Shown here: positions 2,905 through 11,334 of the stretch, one piece after another
How the letters are laid out: every line of letters begins with the position of its first letter
Position numbering within the stretch: the stretch's first letter is position 1
NCBI GenBank assembly: GCA_002728915.1
Contig: PBWE01000009.1
Span: forward strand, 1,082 to 12,415
Reading direction: 5' to 3'
DNA: 11,334 bases
DNA from: Micrococcales bacterium
Lineage (GTDB): Bacteria > Actinomycetota > Actinomycetes > S36-B12
The notes under the pieces: model-generated
What the model was told of the DNA's origin: nothing
Databases searched by the model: none
Seen by the model: only the letters and a program-made list of their open reading frames with translations
Translations under genes and position numbers: made by a program

Positions 2905-3402
2905 CTAGCGGAAATCGACGGGGATGATGACGTCATGGGACCGGTCTTGGGAGCGGGTATGGTCCGCGCGAACCGCGATGGCGCATTGAATGCGGCGGCA
3001 GTCCACGTTGCCGATCCTCGACGAGACATACAAGGTCACTTTGAATCGACCCTTCTTCTTGAAAGGGGTAGCAAGATTTCGGGCGTACGGAGGTGGGTTA
3101 GACGACACCCAGGCCGAAGATTGGGAGGAAGCATCCAAGTTGACGCCGCCGCCGCAGGGGCTTGGGGCGTCACCCTCGTTTGGTCTTACACATAGCGCGA
3201 CGTAAACACCTATGCGTGGATTAAATTGGCGACCTCGCACCACCACGCGCTGCCCCGAAGGATCCAGATTTTGGGTCTCAGAGACGATGACGCGCTGTCC
3301 ATAGTCCCCTTTGGCCACAGCGCGCGAAGAGTCAGCGGCTGCGCTTGGTACGGCTAGCAGCAATGACGCTAGGAGAACGACGGTGACGGATGTACTGCGC
3401 AC
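2905..3402 (-). CDS. Small secreted neocarzinostatin-fold (enediyne apoprotein-like) protein
   Basis: This encodes 165 residues from a GTG at 3402-3400. That start is chosen because a GGAG lies six bases ahead and because it puts a clean signal peptide (VVLLASLLLAVPSAAA, residues 8-23) at the N-terminus; a TTG further up (3441) lacks such support. The mature part (about 140 residues) has features of the neocarzinostatin family: a GQRVVVRGRQF strand, VYVALC (C71) with partner C83, and C135-x4-C140 followed by AIAVRADH and a closing IPVDF strand. The C-x4-C spacing matches the second disulfide of neocarzinostatin. In that family the fold binds a small chromophore in a cleft, and many actinobacterial relatives have no known ligand. 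There is no enediyne biosynthesis gene here, so a toxin-carrier role is unlikely. It lies between fbpA (84 bp) and the 264-residue apparent paralogue (42 bp). Confidence 0.72.
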   Translation of the reverse strand: MRSTSVTVVLLASLLLAVPSAAADSSRAVAKGDYGQRVIVSETQNLDPSGQRVVVRGRQFNPRIGVYVALCVRPNEGDAPSPCGGGVNLDASSQSSAWVSSNPPPYARNLATPFKKKGRFKVTLYVSSRIGNVDCRRIQCAIAVRADHTRSQDRSHDVIIPVDFR

Positions 3403-3408
3403 AAAGAT

Positions 3409-3412
3409 CTCC
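3409..3412 (-). promoter_or_regulatory. Ribosome binding site supporting the GTG start at 3402
   Basis: On the minus strand GGAG stands six bases before the GTG at 3402-3400. It favours this start over the in-frame TTG at 3441, which has no comparable site. Confidence 0.55.
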
Positions 3413-3467
3413 ACGTAAGGCGTCCTAATCGTAAATAGCAAATCCTTAAGTTACGGGCTTTTTTGCA

Positions 3468-3486: not shown

Positions 3487-4539
3487 TCAACTGAGGCCCA
3501 CCCGCTCCAGCATTTTCAGCGTGCCAGGAAGGTCCTGTATTTCAGCGAGAGGGATATCCGGTCCCGACACTTCTTCAATAGGCGGGACATGAGCGGGCCC
3601 CGGAATGCCCTGGGCAAGCGGATATTCGGTAGTTGTGTCAACGAACCATTCTTGAGCCGCATCCGACAAGAGCCACTCAATGAAAGCTGTTCCTTCAGCG
3701 GGGTTTTCCGAGGCGCTCAAAACGCAGGCGCCCGCCACGTTTACTAGACCGCCTGGGTCACCAGGTTCCGTGAAGGCCAGCGCCACGTTGACGTTCTCTT
3801 CGCCAATCTCGTCTGCAAGCCGGTACCAGTAATAGTGGTTGATCAATCCAAGCTGAACTTGGCCGGCGTCAACCGCATCCTGAATCGCGATGTTGTTGTC
3901 GTATCTTTGGACGTCGTTATCGATAAGACCTTTGAGCCATGTCTCCGTGACCTCTTCTCCGAATGCAACTCTCATTCCTGTCACGAATGCTTGGAATGAG
4001 CCGTTAGTGGGCGCAATCGCAACCTCCCCGGCCCACTGGGGCTCGACCAGGTCCAGTACTGACGTTGGAACCTCGGTCAGGTCTAGCTCAGAGGAGTCGT
4101 AAGCTATAACTCGAGCTCGGCCCGTCACCCCCGTCCAATTTCCAGTTTCGGCCCGGTAGGCAGCAGGTACTTTATTCATGATTTCCTGTGATGTAGGAAG
4201 ACACAAACCGGCCGCGTCAACTGCACCAAGTGCTCCTGCATCCTGAGCAAAGAAGACGTCTGCCGGTGACTTGAGACCTTCTTCCTGAATCTGGGCAGCT
4301 AATTCTGCCGTCTTCCCGTAGCGCACCTCGAGATCAACGCCGGTATCGCACACGTATTGCTGTAGCAAGTCACCGACAAGGTACTCACCTCTCCCTGAGT
4401 AGACAGTCAGGGATCCAGCATCACCAGAAGGTTCGCACTCGCTTCCGTCGGCGAAGTCGTCCCCCCCACAAGCCGAAAGTGCTGACAGCGATATCGAGGC
4501 CAGAAGCAGCGGCGCAAAGACCTTGTGGCGGAAATTCAT
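3487..4539 (-). CDS. fbpA: Ferric-iron ABC transporter substrate-binding lipoprotein (FbpA family)
   Basis: This encodes 350 residues. The N-terminus is a lipoprotein signal ending in LSAC with the lipidated C24, so the mature protein would sit on the outer face of the membrane and hand ferric iron to an FbpBC-type permease and ATPase. Family features include LTVYSGRGEYLV (residues 44-55), YGKTAELAAQI (74-84), ADVFFAQDAGALGAV (93-107) and the paired tyrosines Y236-Y237 in LINHYYWYRL, which are iron ligands in FbpA proteins. The ATG at 4539-4537 has a GAGAGGT ribosome site (4550-4544). No permease or ATPase gene of the Fbp type occurs in the window, so it is an orphan binding protein or its partners lie elsewhere. 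Two DtxR-type boxes lie 73-124 bp upstream, supporting iron repression. It heads a likely operon with the two secreted proteins downstream. Confidence 0.9.
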   Translation of the reverse strand: MNFRHKVFAPLLLASISLSALSACGGDDFADGSECEPSGDAGSLTVYSGRGEYLVGDLLQQYVCDTGVDLEVRYGKTAELAAQIQEEGLKSPADVFFAQDAGALGAVDAAGLCLPTSQEIMNKVPAAYRAETGNWTGVTGRARVIAYDSSELDLTEVPTSVLDLVEPQWAGEVAIAPTNGSFQAFVTGMRVAFGEEVTETWLKGLIDNDVQRYDNNIAIQDAVDAGQVQLGLINHYYWYRLADEIGEENVNVALAFTEPGDPGGLVNVAGACVLSASENPAEGTAFIEWLLSDAAQEWFVDTTTEYPLAQGIPGPAHVPPIEEVSGPDIPLAEIQDLPGTLKMLERVGLS

Positions 4540-4608: not shown

Positions 4609-4642
4609 TATTTAGGTAAGGCTTTCCTTACCCGCTTGGCAA
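4609..4642 (-). promoter_or_regulatory. Candidate fbpA promoter
   Basis: On the minus strand TTGCCA (4642-4637) and TACCTA (4618-4613) are 18 bp apart, and the AT-rich run continues to 4609. These are moderate matches to -35 and -10 elements. The 4612-4630 box would cover the spacer and -10, which suits repression. No experimental start site is implied, and other pairings are possible. Confidence 0.35.
4612..4630. promoter_or_regulatory. DtxR/IdeR-type iron box (upstream, imperfect)
   Basis: The 19-mer TTAGGTAAGGCTTTCCTTA matches the consensus TTAGGTTAGCCTAACCTAA at 14 of 19 positions (15 if G is allowed at the centre, where C or G occurs). Seven of nine symmetric pairs are complementary. 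Its centre is 33 bp from the centre of the second box, about three helical turns, so both could be bound on the same face. It is well placed to control fbpA on the minus strand. Confidence 0.7.
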
Positions 4643-4644
4643 AT

Positions 4645-4663
4645 TTAGGTTAGCCTAACCTTA
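4645..4663. promoter_or_regulatory. DtxR/IdeR iron box (18 of 19 consensus), overlapping the start codon
   Basis: TTAGGTTAGCCTAACCTTA differs from the ideal palindrome TTAGGTTAGCCTAACCTAA at one position. DtxR/IdeR-Fe(II) binds such sites and represses when iron is sufficient. The last base is the A of the ATG of the adenylation-carrier-acyltransferase gene, so a bound repressor would cover the probable -10 element and the transcription start together. Confidence 0.93.
4651..4656 (+). promoter_or_regulatory. Probable -10 element of a leaderless promoter
   Basis: TAGCCT (TANNNT form) ends seven bases before the A of the ATG at 4663, which is the expected -12 to -7 distance if transcription starts at the ATG itself. 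There is no Shine-Dalgarno sequence before the ATG, in keeping with leaderless mRNA, which is common in actinobacteria. TAGGTT at 4646-4651 is an alternative and would give a leader of only about 5 bases. The -35 region (TTACCC at 4628-4633, 17 bp away) is weak. Confidence 0.5.
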
Positions 4664-7233
4664 TGGAAGATGCTACTTGGGGTCGGCCCCTGGACCTGAG
4701 CGATCTCGCCGCCGATGTAGACCCCAACACACCAGCCATCTGGACCCCGGAAGGCACCATTACGTACGGGGAATTGGTCGCACTCGTACGCCAGCAACAA
4801 AGTCGCTTGCCCGACCGTCGCTCTCTGATCCTGCTAGCTGTTGACAATTCACTGGGTAGCATCGTGAGCTACCTCGCGTGTATCGCATCTAATCTACCGA
4901 CGATCCTTCTCCCACAGGGCGACGACAACTTCTCGTCTGAGGTTGCCCTGCATTACGACCCGAACTTTATTGTCGACGGGCCTTCAGGACGCGTGACCCA
5001 TCGCTCGGCAGCAGAACACAAACTGCATCCTGAACTCCAAATTCTTTTGAGCACATCTGGCTCCACGGGATCACCGAAACTCGTGCGCTTGTCCGAGAAG
5101 AATTTGACCGCAAACGCGACGTCGATAGCGCAAACACTGAATCTGTCGAAAGAAGACAGATGTGTCGCCAGCCTTCCAATGTCCTACTCCTACGGGCTTT
5201 CCGTCATCAACAGCACGATTGCGGCCAGAGGCTGCATCCTTTTGATTCCCGGAACGGCCACGCAACCAAATTTTTGGAACCACGCACGAGCCTCAAACGC
5301 TACGACCTTGAGCACTACCCCATACATGTGGGACCTGATTGAATCCCAGGGCTTGAATGTTTTGCAGATACCGACCCTTTCACGAATCACCGTTGCCGGT
5401 GGTGCTTTACTTCCATCCAAGGTCACCAAGTATGCCCACCTCGGACGTGTAACCGGATGGGATCTGTACGTCATGTATGGGCAGACGGAAGCAACAGCAC
5501 GTATTTCCATTCTCCCCCCAGATCTTGCCTTCGATTGCCCCGACGCTGTCGGATTCCCAATCGAAGGTGGATCTGTGCGCTTGGAACACATCGCCGGTCA
5601 TCCGTTAACCACGGGAGAATTGATCTACCGCGGTCCCAACGTCATGATGGGTTACGCGACTTCGGCTCAAGATCTGAGCCGTGGCCACGACTTAACGGAG
5701 CTCGCCACAGGTGATCTCGCCACGATTGACAAGTCGGGCTGCGTACGAATCGTGGGTCGAACCTCACACATCACAAAAGTTCGTGGTCACCGTGTTGACT
5801 TACGGCATCTTGAATATACGGCAAAACAAAGTGGACTCGAGGTTGCTTGCATTGCGAGCGCAAAGCACATAAACGTCGTCACAACGTCCATCACGCCGGA
5901 AGCAGTTCTATCAACAGTGTGCACAAATTCCGGCCTTCCTCCCGACGCTTTTCAACTTTTCCTAGTGGAGGCATTGCCTCGCTCTCCAAATGGCAAAGTG
6001 TCAATGAAGCAAATCCAAGAGATAGTCGAGACAGAGTCTTGCTTGGTGTTGACTGTTGACCACCCTGACTCCACCATCGACGCAGTCTTTCAACGCCACT
6101 TGTTGCTTTCCCACGTCGACCCTGACCGTTCTTTTGCCGACTACAGGGGGGACTCCCTGAACTACATATCGGTATCAAACGCTCTGCAGAGATTAATTCC
6201 TCATCTTCCCGGTCATTGGCCATCAATGACAGTAAGAGACTTAAAGGCACTTCAAGATCGACAGGGACCCGCGCGTCGAGTTCGGTGGGTGGAAATGCTG
6301 GAGACAAGCATCTTGGTAAGAGCCGTAGCCATTGTTCTCATCGTCTTGAACCACACAGATTTCGTAAAGATTCCGGGCTCTGCGCACGCACTTCTACTAC
6401 TTGCAGGGTACGCCTTTGCACGGTTTGTCTTGCCCGCTAATCTCAGCGAGCCCTACGTGAGACGAACAACACGTTACATCGTCTCTTTGTACACGCCAGT
6501 ACTCATGTGGCTGATCTGTCTTGTCGTGATTAGTGATCAATACGGGCCGTCTCTCTTCTTCGTCAACAGTCTCAGTGATGAATTTAATGGCCCGCATCTC
6601 AGATATTGGTTTGTTGAAGTTCTGTTGTACGCACTTGTGGCCTTTGGCTTGCTCTTCACGTGGCAGCAATTTCGAGATCTATTGCGATTCAAGCCTCTGC
6701 AGGTCACGGGGCTTCTCGCAGTGGCCTGCTTCGCCTTGAGCTTACTTGTTACTAGTCCAGATTCTCTGCATCGCGCGTACTCCCCAGTAGGCACCCTTTG
6801 GCTCTTTGCTGCCGGACTGACCCTGTATTACCTAGACAGCAAAAAAATCGCATATTCGATTCTCTTGAGCGGCGCGCTCTTAATATATTTTGATGAGTTG
6901 CTGAGAGCACTTGTATGCACCGCACTGGTTTTACTGGTTGTCTGGGTGGATCACATCCGGCTTCCGACCTTCCTGGCCAGAATCTTCTCCATACTTGCCT
7001 CAGCGTCTCTGATCATCTACCTCACGCACTGGCAGATATATCCACCGATCAAACACGGGATCGATTTCGCGGATGGTGCTCTGGTGTCAGCCCTGGTGTC
7101 CTTGCTCATCGGTTGTGTGGCATGGTTCTTGTTCAATCAAATGTCATTGCGACTCTCTCGGGCTTTAACCTCGAAACAGAAATCACCGGGAACACCACAT
7201 ATGCAAAAGGAAGCGGTCTCCGCTGATGTCTAG
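4663..7233 (+). CDS. Adenylation-carrier-acyltransferase 3 membrane fusion protein
   Basis: This encodes 856 residues in three parts. (1) Residues 1-460 are an adenylate-forming (AMP-binding) domain with P-loop-like STSGSTGSPK (130-139), YGQTE (272-276), TGD (349-351), hinge region VGRTSHITKVRGHRVD (364-379) and the A10 lysine K445 (SPNGK). (2) Residues 465-532 are a carrier domain with the phosphopantetheine site at S498 (DYRGDSL). (3) Residues 548-828 are an acyltransferase-3-like membrane domain with about ten hydrophobic helices, the start motif RAVAIVLIVLNH (553-564, putative catalytic H564) and the late YLTHWQI motif (786-792). The simplest reading is ATP-dependent activation of a carboxylic acid, thioester loading on S498, and transfer by the membrane domain to an unknown acceptor. 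The A4 region (MSYSYGLS, 173-180) lacks the Asp that holds the alpha-amino group in standard NRPS A domains, so the acid may not be an amino acid. There is no condensation or thioesterase domain. The ATG has no ribosome site and appears leaderless. It heads a three-gene operon. Confidence 0.87.
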   Translation: MEDATWGRPLDLSDLAADVDPNTPAIWTPEGTITYGELVALVRQQQSRLPDRRSLILLAVDNSLGSIVSYLACIASNLPTILLPQGDDNFSSEVALHYDPNFIVDGPSGRVTHRSAAEHKLHPELQILLSTSGSTGSPKLVRLSEKNLTANATSIAQTLNLSKEDRCVASLPMSYSYGLSVINSTIAARGCILLIPGTATQPNFWNHARASNATTLSTTPYMWDLIESQGLNVLQIPTLSRITVAGGALLPSKVTKYAHLGRVTGWDLYVMYGQTEATARISILPPDLAFDCPDAVGFPIEGGSVRLEHIAGHPLTTGELIYRGPNVMMGYATSAQDLSRGHDLTELATGDLATIDKSGCVRIVGRTSHITKVRGHRVDLRHLEYTAKQSGLEVACIASAKHINVVTTSITPEAVLSTVCTNSGLPPDAFQLFLVEALPRSPNGKVSMKQIQEIVETESCLVLTVDHPDSTIDAVFQRHLLLSHVDPDRSFADYRGDSLNYISVSNALQRLIPHLPGHWPSMTVRDLKALQDRQGPARRVRWVEMLETSILVRAVAIVLIVLNHTDFVKIPGSAHALLLLAGYAFARFVLPANLSEPYVRRTTRYIVSLYTPVLMWLICLVVISDQYGPSLFFVNSLSDEFNGPHLRYWFVEVLLYALVAFGLLFTWQQFRDLLRFKPLQVTGLLAVACFALSLLVTSPDSLHRAYSPVGTLWLFAAGLTLYYLDSKKIAYSILLSGALLIYFDELLRALVCTALVLLVVWVDHIRLPTFLARIFSILASASLIIYLTHWQIYPPIKHGIDFADGALVSALVSLLIGCVAWFLFNQMSLRLSRALTSKQKSPGTPHMQKEAVSADV

Positions 7234-7648
7234 TCGTGTGGGCATTGACTTCGTGCACACAGGTCGCATCCGCGACCTAGTCGGTGCATCTAGCCCTGCT
7301 GAACTGCGGAGAATTTGGACTGGTCGCGAATTGGAGGAGTGTGATGGACGTCTCGACTCCCTCGCCGGGCGATGGGCCGCGAAGGAAGCTGTTCTGAAGT
7401 GTTTGAGGTCGGGGATAGCGGAGCACCCTCTAACCAACATTGAAGTCTTGAAAAGCCCACTGGATGGCTCGCCTCACTTACGGCTGCACCGCTCAACCCT
7501 GTATTTCAGTCTCCTGAAGGGATTGAGCCGATGGACGATTTCAATATCGCACGACATCGGAATAGCTATTGCGATCTCTGTCGTTGAAGAGTCGACTCAC
7601 ACCAATCCGCATCGTCCAAAATCTCAAGATGCCTCGAGGAGAAGATGA
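7226..7648 (+). CDS. 4'-phosphopantetheinyl transferase, AcpS type
   Basis: This encodes 140 residues. It moves the phosphopantetheine arm of CoA onto a carrier-domain serine. AcpS hallmarks are GIDFV at residues 6-10 (metal ligand D8), WTGRELEEC (31-39), GRWAAKEAVLK (48-58, metal ligand E54) and the late SISHD strand (about 111-115). The length is slightly above the usual 110-130 because of a basic C-terminal tail. It overlaps the preceding gene by 8 bp, pointing to translational coupling; AGGAAG at 7208-7213 may help. The obvious partner is S498 of the upstream fusion protein. Whether it also serves fatty acid synthesis in this organism cannot be told from the window. I give no acpS symbol because it seems to be a dedicated copy. 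Confidence 0.9.
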   Translation: MSSRVGIDFVHTGRIRDLVGASSPAELRRIWTGRELEECDGRLDSLAGRWAAKEAVLKCLRSGIAEHPLTNIEVLKSPLDGSPHLRLHRSTLYFSLLKGLSRWTISISHDIGIAIAISVVEESTHTNPHRPKSQDASRRR

Positions 7649-8376
7649 AAATGAATCGCCGTGAAGCCGATCCGAGTGGAGCACAAAGGGCGAGACAGGT
7701 ATTAGCCGAGGCAGACACCTTTCAACTTCTGCGTCTAGAGCCGGTGACGAGTCACTTTGATGTAGAAACGTTGGTGGTTTGCCCCTGGTCTGGATGCGTC
7801 ACGTATGTCTTTGGAGACCTTGCCGACATTCCCTCGGGACAGATACGTGTTTCGATACGTGCGGAGAGGCGAGAAATCGGCACTCTCACCATGGGTGGGA
7901 GTTTCGGCCGCCCACAAGTGATCGATCCAGAGCGATTGCAACACACAAAAAAGTTAGACGATAAGTATGTCTCTGATCTCGGCGCGAAAACGCTTATCGG
8001 CGTGCAACTTATTCCTGACACGATTCGTGTAGATGTGGTGTGTGACACTGAAGCTGACATACACCGAGTGCAGTCCTTACAGGTAGCGCCGTTGGACTTT
8101 TTTCACGTGCGTTTTGATTCCTGGTCACTTGATCCAAAGGCGTTTGTATCACACCTTGAGAGCGAGCATCAGCGTGAACTCAGGAACCTCGTAAACGTGT
8201 CCACACCGGAAGTGGGCGCCGTTTCGACGTTTATTTGCATTGATTCTATGAATCGAGATGCGCTTCAACTCGTATGTCTGAATGATGATGGATCAAGCAC
8301 CATTTCGATCCCGTACGGGGCTTTCCTGTCAGGTCCGCAAGACGTCGTGCGATGGGTGATGAGTTACACGAAGTAG
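7645..8376 (+). CDS. DUF2470 domain protein, HugZ-like heme/iron-associated
   Basis: This encodes 243 residues. The C-terminal part, about 165-242, fits DUF2470: SHLESEHQREL with H170 and H175, then a strand with an acidic turn (FICIDSMNRDALQLV), and the closing ISIPYGAFLSGPQDVVRWVMSY. The N-terminal 160 residues resemble the degenerate split-barrel half seen in actinobacterial DUF2470 proteins, with no recognisable catalytic motif. DUF2470 occurs in HugZ-type heme oxygenases and related heme-utilisation proteins, so heme or iron handling is plausible but not shown. The ATG overlaps the previous stop (ATGA). AGGAG at 7637-7641 lies 3 bp before it and 9 bp before a second in-frame ATG at 7651, which may be the true start. 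GC is low (24 of 60 in 7921-7980), unlike flanking genes. It is the last gene of the operon. Confidence 0.65.
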   Translation: MKMNRREADPSGAQRARQVLAEADTFQLLRLEPVTSHFDVETLVVCPWSGCVTYVFGDLADIPSGQIRVSIRAERREIGTLTMGGSFGRPQVIDPERLQHTKKLDDKYVSDLGAKTLIGVQLIPDTIRVDVVCDTEADIHRVQSLQVAPLDFFHVRFDSWSLDPKAFVSHLESEHQRELRNLVNVSTPEVGAVSTFICIDSMNRDALQLVCLNDDGSSTISIPYGAFLSGPQDVVRWVMSYTK

Positions 8377-9002: not shown

Positions 9003-10025
9003 ATGCTGCGACATACTCAGTGGGTGCGAATTTGGTTTTCCTGTGTCGCCTTAGCGGTCATGACCGCGACGGTCAGTGCCTGCCAATCCTCCAGCATGAC
9101 CTCACCGAGGTCGGAGCCGACTGCCACTTCTTCAGCAACCCCCAGTTCTGATCCCTCTCAGCTGCCACTGAATTCTGGGGAGAAAACTTCCTGGCCGGTA
9201 ACGATTGGGATCCAACAGTTGGCGCCGATTGACTTCGTAAGCGATCCAATTAACGGTGACCAAAGGATTCTTGCTTTGGCTGCTGGGTCCGCGGAACTTG
9301 TAGACATGCTCGGGGCTGGCGGACAACTCGTGGGGCAAGATGAGACGAGCGAGCGCCGCACCGACGTCCCGGTAGTCACGCTGGGCCATCAGATTGACAT
9401 AGAAAAGGCTCTTGAGGTCGATCCAACGCTTGTTCTCGTGGATGAATTGATTGGGCCGCCGGAGGCAATCGAAGCACTGAAGCAAGCTGGCGCTGACGTC
9501 GTCACCGTGCCTCCGGTATGGACCCTCGCCGACGTTCCACAGCGCGTGGCAGCGCTCGCTGACTCGGTGGGCGCTTCGGATGATGTTGCCGCACAGTTGG
9601 GCTCGGCACTTGCAGTATCTGATCCCGCACCTGCAAGTACGTCACCAAGGGTCGCCTTTCTGTATCTGCGGGGGCCAAGTGCCGTCTATTTACTCGGTGG
9701 GTCGGAGACGGGGGCCGATGCGCTTATCAAGGCTGCGGGGGGCATTGACGTGGGTAGTGACATCGGCTTGAAGGGTTTTGTCCCCCTTACAGCTGAGGCC
9801 TTGATAGAAGCGGACCCGGACATCGTTTTGGTCATGACCGAAGGTTTAGCTTCGGTGGGTGGCGTGGATGGGCTTGTCAAGTTGCCGGGTGTCGCCCAAA
9901 CGGATGCTGGAATGCAGGGACGTGTGATTGCCGTAGATGATCGGGTACTTCTTTCTTTCGGAGCCCGCGCGCCATCTTTAGTCGCTGCGCTCCGTGAGAT
10001 CTTCGGTTCCGTTGAGAGAGAGTGA
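9003..10025 (+). CDS. hmuT: Heme ABC transporter substrate-binding lipoprotein
   Basis: This encodes 340 residues. The N-terminus is a lipoprotein signal ending in VSAC (lipidated C27), followed by a Ser/Thr/Pro-rich linker (28-58) and a class III binding-protein fold. Diagnostic stretches are RILALAAGSAELVDMLGAG (88-106), VGQDETS (110-116) and PVVTLGHQIDIEKAL (123-137). The residues expected to coordinate heme in corynebacterial HmuT, one His plus a Tyr-x-Arg pair, line up with H129, Y221 and R223 (FLYLRG). The late PLTAEALIEADPDIVLVMTEGLASVGG (261-287) is also typical. The protein would capture heme at the outer membrane face and deliver it to HmuU. Its stop overlaps the hmuU start by four bases. 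The ATG has only a weak ribosome site, but no alternative is better. No HtaA-type heme receptor gene is adjacent. Confidence 0.9.
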   Translation: MLRHTQWVRIWFSCVALAVMTATVSACQSSSMTSPRSEPTATSSATPSSDPSQLPLNSGEKTSWPVTIGIQQLAPIDFVSDPINGDQRILALAAGSAELVDMLGAGGQLVGQDETSERRTDVPVVTLGHQIDIEKALEVDPTLVLVDELIGPPEAIEALKQAGADVVTVPPVWTLADVPQRVAALADSVGASDDVAAQLGSALAVSDPAPASTSPRVAFLYLRGPSAVYLLGGSETGADALIKAAGGIDVGSDIGLKGFVPLTAEALIEADPDIVLVMTEGLASVGGVDGLVKLPGVAQTDAGMQGRVIAVDDRVLLSFGARAPSLVAALREIFGSVERE

Positions 10026-10990
10026 AGGTGTCTTCAGGGGGTCGCTTCGCGCTCATCATGATGATCGGGGTCATGGCATTGGGCGTTGTTTTCGCCGCGT
10101 CTTTGGTGACAGGGTTTGCTGACGTCAGCCCGCAGATCGTGTGGAGTATCCGTGCGCCGCGGGTCGTACTCACCCTTGTCGTCGGGGCGGGTCTAGCTGT
10201 TGCCGGTGGACTGCTGCAGGGAGTTTTTGGGAACCCTCTAGCGGCCCCCTCCATCGTCGGGGTTTCGGCTTCAGGTGCGGCCGGTGCGAGTATCGGAGCA
10301 GCACTGGGCATTCCCTTCAATTCGATACCGCTTGCGTTCATGGGGGTGATGATTGCCGGAGTTGGACTGATTGTTGTGCGTTCAATCGCTAGTCGTGATG
10401 GGAAGGTGAATTCAACAGCCCTGCTGCTCGGCGGAGTGGCCATCAGCTTCTTCTCTCTGGCGCTGGTGTTGCTGGCTACTCCTTTCGTCAACAGGGAAGC
10501 TGGGCGGTCTTTCTCTTTTTGGGCTAACGGATCCTTCGCATTGGCGACTTGGTCCGGAGTCATTGCAGTTGCACCTTTGGTTATCGTGGGGATTGTCATA
10601 GCTTTTGGGATCGCGAGCCGGGTGGACCCGCTGTCTCTCGGCTCTATCGCTGCAAGAGCCCTGGGGGTAGATGCCGGCCGAGTGACGCAGTTCGCGCTAG
10701 TCGCTGTGGTGCTGTTGGTTGCACCCGGTGTCACGGTCGTTGGCATTATCGCTTTCGTTGGACTCGTGGTTCCCCATGCCCTTCGTTTTTTTCTCGGACC
10801 GCGCAACACATTCCTGTTACCAGCTTCAGCCGTCTTCGGTGCGCTGTTGGTGGCGAGTGCGGATTTCATTTCCCGCAACATGCTTGCCCCCGCAGAAATA
10901 CCCGTGGGTGCAGTTACAGCACTGGTTGGAGCACCTGTCTTCTTGGTGCTCTTGCGCCAGATGGTGCGTCGTGGGGTTGTGAGCACCTGA
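10022..10990 (+). CDS. hmuU: Heme ABC transporter permease (FecCD family)
   Basis: This encodes 322 residues with about nine to ten hydrophobic helices. FecCD/BtuC features include RAPRVVLTLVVGAGLAVAG (44-62), QGVFGNPLAAPSIVGVSASGA (66-86), the ATPase-contacting region around ALGVDAGRVTQ (213-223), FVGLVVPHALR (245-255) and the closing EIPVGAVTALVGAPVFLVLL. It forms the membrane channel, normally as a dimer, for heme delivered by HmuT. The GTG at 10022 overlaps the hmuT stop (GTGA), a coupled arrangement. A second GTG six bases on (10028) is an alternative start that would remove two residues; GAGAGAGA just upstream could serve either. The protein is a little shorter than typical FecCD proteins (about 330-350). 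Confidence 0.93.
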   Translation: MKVSSGGRFALIMMIGVMALGVVFAASLVTGFADVSPQIVWSIRAPRVVLTLVVGAGLAVAGGLLQGVFGNPLAAPSIVGVSASGAAGASIGAALGIPFNSIPLAFMGVMIAGVGLIVVRSIASRDGKVNSTALLLGGVAISFFSLALVLLATPFVNREAGRSFSFWANGSFALATWSGVIAVAPLVIVGIVIAFGIASRVDPLSLGSIAARALGVDAGRVTQFALVAVVLLVAPGVTVVGIIAFVGLVVPHALRFFLGPRNTFLLPASAVFGALLVASADFISRNMLAPAEIPVGAVTALVGAPVFLVLLRQMVRRGVVST

Positions 10991-11334
10991 TGGCGTTGTT
11001 GGAACTGAAAGGGGTATCACTGCTCACAAATGGTGTTGAGCGAGTCGCGTCGGTGAGTGCATCGGTCGACGCGGGTCAGCTTGTAGCGATCGTCGGTCCC
11101 AATGGCTCAGGTAAGTCATCTCTGCTGGGTTTGATGGCTGGCCTGTTGACGCCTACGCGCGGATCCGTTCTGCTGGATGGTCGACTGGTATCGAGTATGG
11201 GGCTGCGAGAACTTGCCTGCCAGCGTGCGTGGTTGGGTCAATCGACACCGGGCGCCGACAGTTTCACCGTGGCAGAGATTCTGAACTGGGGGAGGAGTTT
11301 CGTAGCCAGAGAGACCATCGATGCACCGACCGCA
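10990..11334 (+). CDS. hmuV: Heme ABC transporter ATPase, C-terminus cut by window edge
   Basis: The first 115 codons are present. The Walker A motif is GPNGSGKSS at residues 36-44 and the Q-loop glutamine is Q84 (WLGQST). The signature motif, Walker B and switch His lie beyond the edge. The ATG shares its A with the TGA of hmuU (TGATG), so translation is probably coupled. It would power heme import by HmuTU in the cytosol. Assignment as HmuV rather than another FecE-type ATPase rests on its position after hmuT and hmuU. Confidence 0.88.
   Translation, partial: MALLELKGVSLLTNGVERVASVSASVDAGQLVAIVGPNGSGKSSLLGLMAGLLTPTRGSVLLDGRLVSSMGLRELACQRAWLGQSTPGADSFTVAEILNWGRSFVARETIDAPTA

Follow-up and report, generated by a model that had tools for sequence, protein, structure and literature searches.

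A predicted iron-controlled adenylation-carrier-acyltransferase-3 fusion and its linkage to ferric-iron transporter genes

Results

An adenylation-carrier-acyltransferase fusion behind two predicted DtxR boxes

We analysed a window of 11,334 nucleotides from a Micrococcales bacterium (assembly GCA_002728915.1, contig PBWE01000009.1, positions 1,082 to 12,415 of the forward strand). Its central gene encodes a single chain in which an adenylation (A) domain, a carrier domain (PCP) and a membrane acyltransferase-3 (AT3) domain follow one another, hereafter called the fusion. Two predicted iron boxes precede this gene, and its actinobacterial relatives often stand beside genes of FbpA-type ferric transporters. 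We tentatively propose, with somewhat less than even confidence, that the fusion works in the manner of the D-alanylation (Dlt) system without being related to it, and that it would place an anionic acyl group on an envelope or exported acceptor in the service of ferric-iron import. The fusion gene opens a tight run of three overlapping genes on the + strand (4663-8376 in the list of open reading frames, ORFs), with overlaps of 8 nt between ORFs 4663-7233 and 7226-7648 and of 4 nt between ORFs 7226-7648 and 7645-8376. The features concerned are the following.

3487..4539, - strand: gene of an FbpA-like, ferric-type solute-binding protein, divergent from the fusion gene (PF13343, 83.2 bits)
4612..4630, no strand: DtxR box 1, one mismatch against TWAGGTWAGSCTWACCTWA
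4645..4663, no strand: DtxR box 2, zero mismatches; its final base is the A of the fusion start codon
4663..7233, + strand: A-PCP-AT3 fusion gene, 856 aa (adenylation-carrier-acyltransferase-3)
4696..6033, + strand: adenylation domain, about residues 12-457 (PF00501); Arg280 codon at 5500-5502; residue 176 aligns with the amine-binding Asp of VinN
6070..6267, + strand: carrier domain, about residues 470-535 (PF00550); codon of the phosphopantetheine Ser498 at 6154-6156
6304..7176, + strand: AT3 membrane domain, about residues 548-838 (PF01757); R-X10-H motif Arg553/His564
7226..7648, + strand: gene of an AcpS-type phosphopantetheinyl transferase, 140 aa (PF01648)
7645..8376, + strand: gene of a lineage-restricted protein, 243 aa, possibly DUF2470 (DRI) and heme-related (PF10615 below cut-off; His170/His175 pair)

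An initial annotation of the window had read the three domains in one 856-residue chain, a reading that Pfam matches and invariant key residues bear out. The AMP-binding match is strong (116.3 bits for a cut-off of 29.9), while Acyl_transf_3 scores 28.4 bits alone and 32.9 with its frame neighbours for a cut-off of 31, and PP-binding reaches 13.9 bits for a cut-off of 20.8, one relative scoring 20.9 bits. Ser498 in the carrier, Lys445 in the A domain and, in the AT3 domain, both Arg553 and His564 are the same in 67/67 aligned sequences, and because these key residues do not vary we accept the sub-threshold carrier and AT3 domains as real on sequence grounds. Arg280, Lys445, Ser498, Arg553 and His564 were likewise identical in 80/80 aligned sequences (59 actinobacterial, 20 proteobacterial and the window's own). 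Arg553 and His564 provide, in 67/67 sequences, the R-X10-H motif of the first membrane helix, which is described as absolutely conserved in AT3 domains (PMC9833829). The RXXR motif of AT3 membrane helix 3, searched as a loose text pattern, was present 25-75 residues past the Arg in 62/67. In the predicted model of the fusion (mean predicted local distance difference test, pLDDT, 82.8; predicted template modelling score, pTM, 0.54) an ANL fold is followed by a helix bundle, the AT3 membrane domain comprising about ten helices. Fold-search matches include MenE, oxalate-CoA ligase, MatB and DltA (3e7w); the lists are dominated by A-domain matches, and the AT3 part was folded only within the whole chain, so we attach no weight to the lack of AT3 structures among the matches.

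Predicted iron boxes recur in two phyla

Two DtxR-type boxes lie between the fusion gene and the divergent FbpA-like gene, where shuffles of the window give a mean of 0.01. We read them as two predicted DtxR operators at the fusion promoter, so that the iron control claimed initially stands as a prediction, while the single near-perfect box on which it was based has become two. As box 2 runs into the first base of the start codon, transcripts may lack a leader or be translated from a codon further in.

The iron boxes were then counted in relatives. The main locus sample, drawn from named organisms, consisted of the best 80 of 455 loci, 60 of them actinobacterial and 20 proteobacterial; exclusion of L111, for which no full fusion ORF was called, left 59 actinobacterial loci. 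A DtxR box with at most 4 mismatches (-600 to +150) was found near the fusion gene in 29/59, for 0.095 expected from mononucleotide shuffles. Twelve further loci have a box with at most 3 mismatches 3.57-3.72 kb upstream, at the start of the transporter operon (the 12 are those within this mismatch limit among 16 far matches), giving 41/59 loci with a box before the fusion gene or its transporter operon. Either a box or an FbpA-type neighbour is present in 50/59, and copies that have no transporter, for example in Arthrobacter, Pedococcus and Cryobacterium, also bear DtxR boxes. A second sample comprised the 29 loci besides the window's own among the 30 best-scoring of 71 matches in genomes of the class, some organisms being common to both samples: a transporter gene was found within 1.5 kb in 21, a box (-1500 to +150) in 21 and either of them in 28.

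Rhizobial relatives carry another palindrome, TGA-N9-TCA, which we take to be the operator form of RirA. It occurs between -120 and +20 in 11 of 14 copies, where the background rate of these loci predicts 0.72; the count is inflated by related sequences (two Rhizobium bangladeshense loci are among the 14) and was obtained over a stretch picked after a first look at palindromes. The stricter TGAC-N7-GTCA precedes 6/14 copies, for 0.11 expected. These rhizobial copies stand apart from FbpA-type genes, and nothing consistent was found when Irr- and Fur-type boxes were sought before the proteobacterial copies. Judged from these predicted sites, the tie to iron spans two phyla and is firmer in Actinobacteria than in rhizobia.

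The fusion gene of Sinorhizobium meliloti (L153:7971-10628) is preceded by TTGAC-N7-GTCA, which coincides in part with a possible -35 region, and six Sinorhizobium/Ensifer copies keep the arms of this palindrome around a variable middle. The gene order in S. meliloti is fusion, DinB, GST, ndk; since ndk is SMc00595 (PMC2912261), the fusion would be SMc00592 if the tags run in order. A study in which 25 iron-related genes are reported to rise in swarming conditions (PMC2848241) tabulates SMc00592, a 'hypothetical, transmembrane protein', with values of -0.44, 1.47, 1.30 and -0.23, alongside iron-uptake genes.

The family is widespread and often linked to FbpA-type transporters

Of 7995 scored candidates 7621 pass an E-value of 1e-5, a number that may include proteins sharing the A domain alone; among the 120 relatives listed, AMP-binding was matched in 120 and Acyl_transf_3 in 106. 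Of 394 genomes sampled from the class, 71 hold a member of the family, the window's own included (match E 1e-40), and 55 of these 71 matches extend from before residue 60 to past 790. Members are also found in proteobacteria and, in 97 of 72,556 records, on plasmids, where 15 listed copies are annotated merely as 'AMP-binding protein'.

In 34/59 actinobacterial loci an FbpA-type ferric-transporter gene stands 6 kb or less from the fusion gene, and solute-binding protein, permease and ATPase are all matched in 32 of these 34. The linked transporter may be codirectional, as in Mycobacterium, Lentzea and some Nocardioides, or divergent, as in Streptomyces and Protofrankia. On plasmids, an iron ATP-binding cassette (ABC) transporter is annotated beside the fusion in four of five actinobacterial records (Rhodococcus opacus B4, R. 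fascians, R. gordoniae and Mycolicibacterium chubuense, the Pseudarthrobacter plasmid being without). The partners listed initially had missed both the divergent gene at 3487-4539 and this recurrent FbpABC-type transporter. The ferric assignment is a broad one: the transporter ATPase of L047 scores 247.9 bits on the ferric model NF008513 for a cut-off of 496, and NCBIfam puts linked transporter proteins nearest other substrates too, such as 2-aminoethylphosphonate.

The tblastn survey of neighbours covered 75 loci, 16 of them proteobacterial (the proteobacterial L112-L115 are not among these). Other recurrent neighbours were grouped into clusters: cluster 4, found in 14 loci, represents a short-chain dehydrogenase, mostly 5-12 kb distant; clusters 5, 6 and 8-12 belong to mycobacterial surroundings; cluster 7 has no Pfam hit, sits where the transporter genes lie and was taken for antisense ORFs. 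Annotation covered mainly the clusters up to 12. TOMM-like, YcaO and TfuA genes were rejected as family-wide partners, occurring in 3 loci, beside Rhizobium copies. In Rhizobium lentis (L106:12716-19030) and R. bangladeshense (L154:10747-16914) the fusion gene is followed by genes of a kinase/cyclase-like AAA protein, YcaO and TfuA, as in peptide-modification clusters. Six mycobacterial loci also hold, at a distance of about 8 kb, a gene of a siderophore-interacting protein (PF08021/PF04954; L046:1266-2147), which may reflect shared surroundings.

The A domain resembles enzymes of dicarboxylic acids

The ten top-scoring solved sequences for the A domain of the window are VinN, oxalate-CoA ligase, malonyl-CoA synthetase (four entries, two of them chimeras with benzoate-CoA ligase) and 2-succinylbenzoate-CoA ligases, all dicarboxylic-acid enzymes by name, the acid of VinN being 3-methylaspartate. 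VinN (3wvn) is the best of them, with an E-value of 3.3e-24; a nonribosomal peptide synthetase (NRPS), a second oxalyl-CoA synthetase, a feruloyl-CoA synthetase and DltA score lower. NCBIfam matches of the fusion are broad and include long-chain acyl-CoA ligases.

In VinN, K330 and R331 stand in a loop, D230 serves the amine and F231 is bulky (PMC11253843), and for AfcQ the same arginine has been proposed to bind the second carboxylate of aspartate (PMC12186527). In the 3wvn alignment, Arg280 of the fusion falls on the Arg of this Lys-Arg pair, after the YGQTE motif, and an arginine occupies this place in 67/67 and 80/80 sequences. Tyr177 takes the place of F231 in 67/67, and the place of Asp230 is held by Cys in 58/67 and Ser in 9/67 in the VinN alignment frame; when LgrA is used for the alignment, the amine-binding Asp place falls on Gly178, identical in 67/67. 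The Asp at GrsA 235/VinN 230, a hallmark of A domains for alpha- or beta-amino acids, is thus missing from the aligned sequences. With Arg280 and Tyr177 invariant and Cys or Ser at the D230 place, our best guess for the substrate is therefore an acid that bears a second negative charge and lacks an amine in that position, a dicarboxylic acid being the likeliest.

An AcpS-type enzyme and a lineage-restricted protein complete the operon in the window

The AcpS-type gene was rightly placed across the end of the fusion gene in the initial annotation, the match to PF01648 being clear (45.5 bits for a cut-off of 25). The protein passes the general phosphopantetheinyl transferase (PPTase) model TIGR00556 (59.3 for 45.35) and stays below the holo-ACP synthase model TIGR00516 (50.9 for 59.8). 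In a tree of 19 proteins the fusion-linked AcpS rows (window, L060, L171 and L105) form a single clade with support 99/96, the other 15 rows being PPTases from genomes of the same bacterial family; several end branches are long, L060 and L171 are near-copies, and the L170 row is probably Sfp-type. A further, distant PPTase is encoded elsewhere in the host genome, on contig 42 (24.6 bits, 25.4 with neighbours, cut-off 25). These observations support the earlier idea that the fusion has a PPTase of its own.

Such a neighbour is rare in the family. AcpS adjoins the fusion gene in 2/59 actinobacterial loci (L060 and L105), and also in the genomes G220, of the window's family, and G381, of the same order (L012); the AcpS of G220 is 98% identical to that of L060, so that the two are nearly the same organism. 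In L060, a close relative, a gene of a PhyH-like dioxygenase (6419-7231) follows those of the fusion and AcpS. No relative of the third protein was found beside the fusion gene (tblastn, E 1e-4, 0 matches in 75 loci). The view that AcpS and DUF2470 define the system was rejected on this survey: of what had been expected of homologues, the AcpS and DUF2470 neighbours are mostly missing and the iron boxes mostly present.

The third gene does overlap the AcpS gene, as first described; the DUF2470 identity given to its product is weak (PF10615, 15.3 bits for a cut-off of 22, E = 0.029). A family search of the host's own genome gave no DUF2470 match, and the 19 homologues found each have at least 83% identity. 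His170 and His175, identical in 9/9 aligned close sequences, fit the HxxxxH pair (His16/His21 of Dri1), which is strictly conserved in the DUF2470 domain, GBP excepted (PMC11014987). A profile of ten DUF2470 proteins of the class placed the third protein (two copies, one sequence) first of 7493 sequences, at 12.4 bits and E 0.044; in this profile the L148 row is a wrong-frame ORF, and L126 and L137 probably have a false N-terminal extension. With a cleaner profile of seven rows, hhalign gave a probability of 3.3% and E 0.013. Established DUF2470 members of the class give good matches to the heme-binding MSMEG_6519, in contrast to the third protein, whose profile found nothing convincing among solved structures (best E 0.085) and whose predicted model (mean pLDDT 35) was unusable for fold search. 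DUF2470 proteins are often linked to iron or heme (PMC11014987), and for the IdeR-controlled Rv3839 a repression of heme synthesis has been proposed by its authors (PMC13258150). The third protein is perhaps a heme-handling helper acting separately.

Other genes of the window and the host genome

The host genome is actinobacterial (1.74 Mb, 48 contigs, 87% complete). Downstream of the operon the window holds one more transport locus:

9003..11334, + strand: siderophore-type ABC importer (Peripla_BP_2, FecCD, ATPase), a neighbour whose ATPase gene crosses the window edge

The ATPase gene is complete when read in the larger locus L157. We regard this FecCD-type importer simply as a neighbour of the fusion operon. 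Downstream of the FbpA-like gene, two genes on the - strand (2068-2874 and 2905-3441) look secreted by reading, and no Pfam family scored above cut-off in either. A second, complete FbpABC-type operon lies on contig 37 of the host genome (L155:3072-6877), flanked by ORFs that read as purL-like and purF-like, and a DtxR-like site with 2 mismatches stands at its start.

Discussion

The proposed mechanism starts from iron starvation, which would induce the trifunctional membrane acyltransferase. Its A domain would adenylate a small acid with a second negative charge, most likely dicarboxylic, and this acid would be loaded on the fusion's own carrier domain, primed by the overlapping AcpS. The AT3 domain would then move the acyl group across the membrane onto an envelope or exported acceptor, and the carboxylate-bearing product would hold or mobilise ferric iron for an FbpABC-type importer under the same control, whose part in the window would be played by the divergent FbpA-like protein. 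Of this scheme, the sequences show the domains, the invariant catalytic residues, the iron boxes, the transporter linkage and the separate AcpS clade; which acid and acceptor are used, which way the group travels and whether iron capture is served are what we infer. The carrier rather than CoA would be the acyl donor because it is fused to the acyltransferase and linked to AcpS, and service to iron uptake is suggested by the shared control and the neighbours. Membrane passage of acyl groups has been ascribed to relatives of the AT3 domain (PMC9833829, PMC9558356, PMC12423673).

The fusion would thus resemble several known systems in part. As in Dlt (DltA-DltC-DltB(-DltD)), an acid activated by an ANL enzyme would be held on a carrier and transferred by a membrane acyltransferase. 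The fusion differs in being one chain with an AT3 domain, where DltB is an MBOAT protein, a structurally distinct family according to PMC12423673, and in its iron boxes and ferric-transporter linkage. No MBOAT family was found among the Pfam matches of its membrane domain, and it scores 62.6 bits on the DltA model TIGR01734 for a cut-off of 559.85. Since its acyltransferase is AT3, not MBOAT, and the DltA score falls far below cut-off, the sequence places the fusion outside Dlt, as a system working like it. AT3 surface acylases of the OafA/OafB and OatA type share the R-X10-H motif and a membrane domain of about ten helices, and the A domain shares with VinN-type domains (VinN, AfcQ) the Arg at the Arg331 place and an aromatic Tyr177 at the Phe231 place, differing in Cys/Ser for Asp230, in a loop length off by one and in the attached carrier and AT3 domains. 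Aas-type acyl-ACP synthetases/acyltransferases also join ligase and acyltransferase in one chain, with an acyltransferase family other than AT3. The ligase part of the fusion scores 96.2 bits on the corresponding model NF006386, for a cut-off of 1221. The transporter proteins linked to the fusion fall within the broad family of FbpABC, bear an iron ABC transporter annotation in the plasmid records, and are here paired with an acyl-transfer enzyme. The initial annotation knew of no characterised system with this layout, and no description of an A-PCP-AT3 chain was found in a literature search that most subscription journals lay beyond; in the matching passages of PMC554113 and PMC13032640 the domains stand in separate rows rather than as a one-chain architecture.

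Several points weigh against the proposal. Three papers on AT3 proteins, surface acylases included, describe acyl-CoA as donor (PMC9833829, PMC9558356, PMC12423673), whereas donation by a fused carrier is a prediction here, as are the substrate and the acceptor. When a family profile of 17 sequences is used, NRPS domains (linear gramicidin synthase) rank first, VinN seventh and oxalate-CoA ligase eighth. The VinN loop bearing Arg331 has one residue fewer than its counterpart in ordinary A domains (PMC11253843) and the alignment is gapped there, so that the geometry of Arg280 is uncertain. No FbpA-type gene lies within 6 kb in 25/59 actinobacterial loci, some of whose contigs end early, and 9/59 have neither box nor FbpA-type gene. 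Among the 16 proteobacterial loci only L089 has an FbpA-type match, of 69 bits and 7 kb off, and eight of nine non-rhizobial proteobacterial upstream regions lack the RirA-type palindrome, the ninth having one at -208. The complete FbpABC operon of the host genome lies on another contig, the window itself holding the solute-binding protein alone.

In a bolder form, which we hold to be rather unlikely, the proposal would describe a widespread iron device that has gone undescribed, a carboxylate-decorated envelope acting as a fixed ferric trap that feeds an FbpABC-type importer, under DtxR in Actinobacteria and RirA in rhizobia. An unlikely alternative, ranking next, has the enzyme produce or complete a small metallophore for export, the acylated chelator leaving the cell and returning as a ferric complex through an FbpABC- or FecCD-type importer. 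The iron boxes and iron transporters at the locus and the siderophore-type importer genes downstream in the window would suit such a role, and AT3 proteins modify secreted antibiotics too (PMC9558356). However, neither an IucA/IucC synthetase of the NRPS-independent siderophore (NIS) type nor an NRPS condensation domain was found in the host genome (87% complete), which is why envelope decoration is ranked slightly above a metallophore. No biosynthetic partner recurs either, since the neighbour clusters annotated besides the transporter are common or lineage-bound families. Moreover, the usual cargo of FbpA-type proteins is Fe(III) that is free or weakly bound.

Less probable again is an envelope remodelling in iron stress, in which a Dlt-like alteration of surface charge or permeability would do no more than share the iron regulon, with no direct role in capture; the recurrent FbpA-type linkage (34/59) and the joint control would then be left unexplained. 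The least likely is a fatty-acyl or aryl-acid system, in which Arg280 has another job and a lipid or aromatic acid serves, for example, as the acylated membrane anchor of a chelator: the broad NCBIfam matches to long-chain acyl-CoA ligases and the feruloyl-CoA synthetase among solved relatives fit it, but the ten nearest solved A-domain sequences are of dicarboxylate type and Arg280 and Tyr177 are identical in 67/67.

If an anionic acyl group is indeed placed on an envelope or exported acceptor for ferric-iron import, iron-starved bacteria of soil and water would have an envelope-modification or chelator pathway that is overlooked when genomes are mined for NIS and NRPS-condensation genes. The fusion is also a case in which a carrier in the same chain may supply the AT3 domain. 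Its predicted control by iron switches, together with the frequent iron-importer neighbour, points to an overlooked route of iron gathering.

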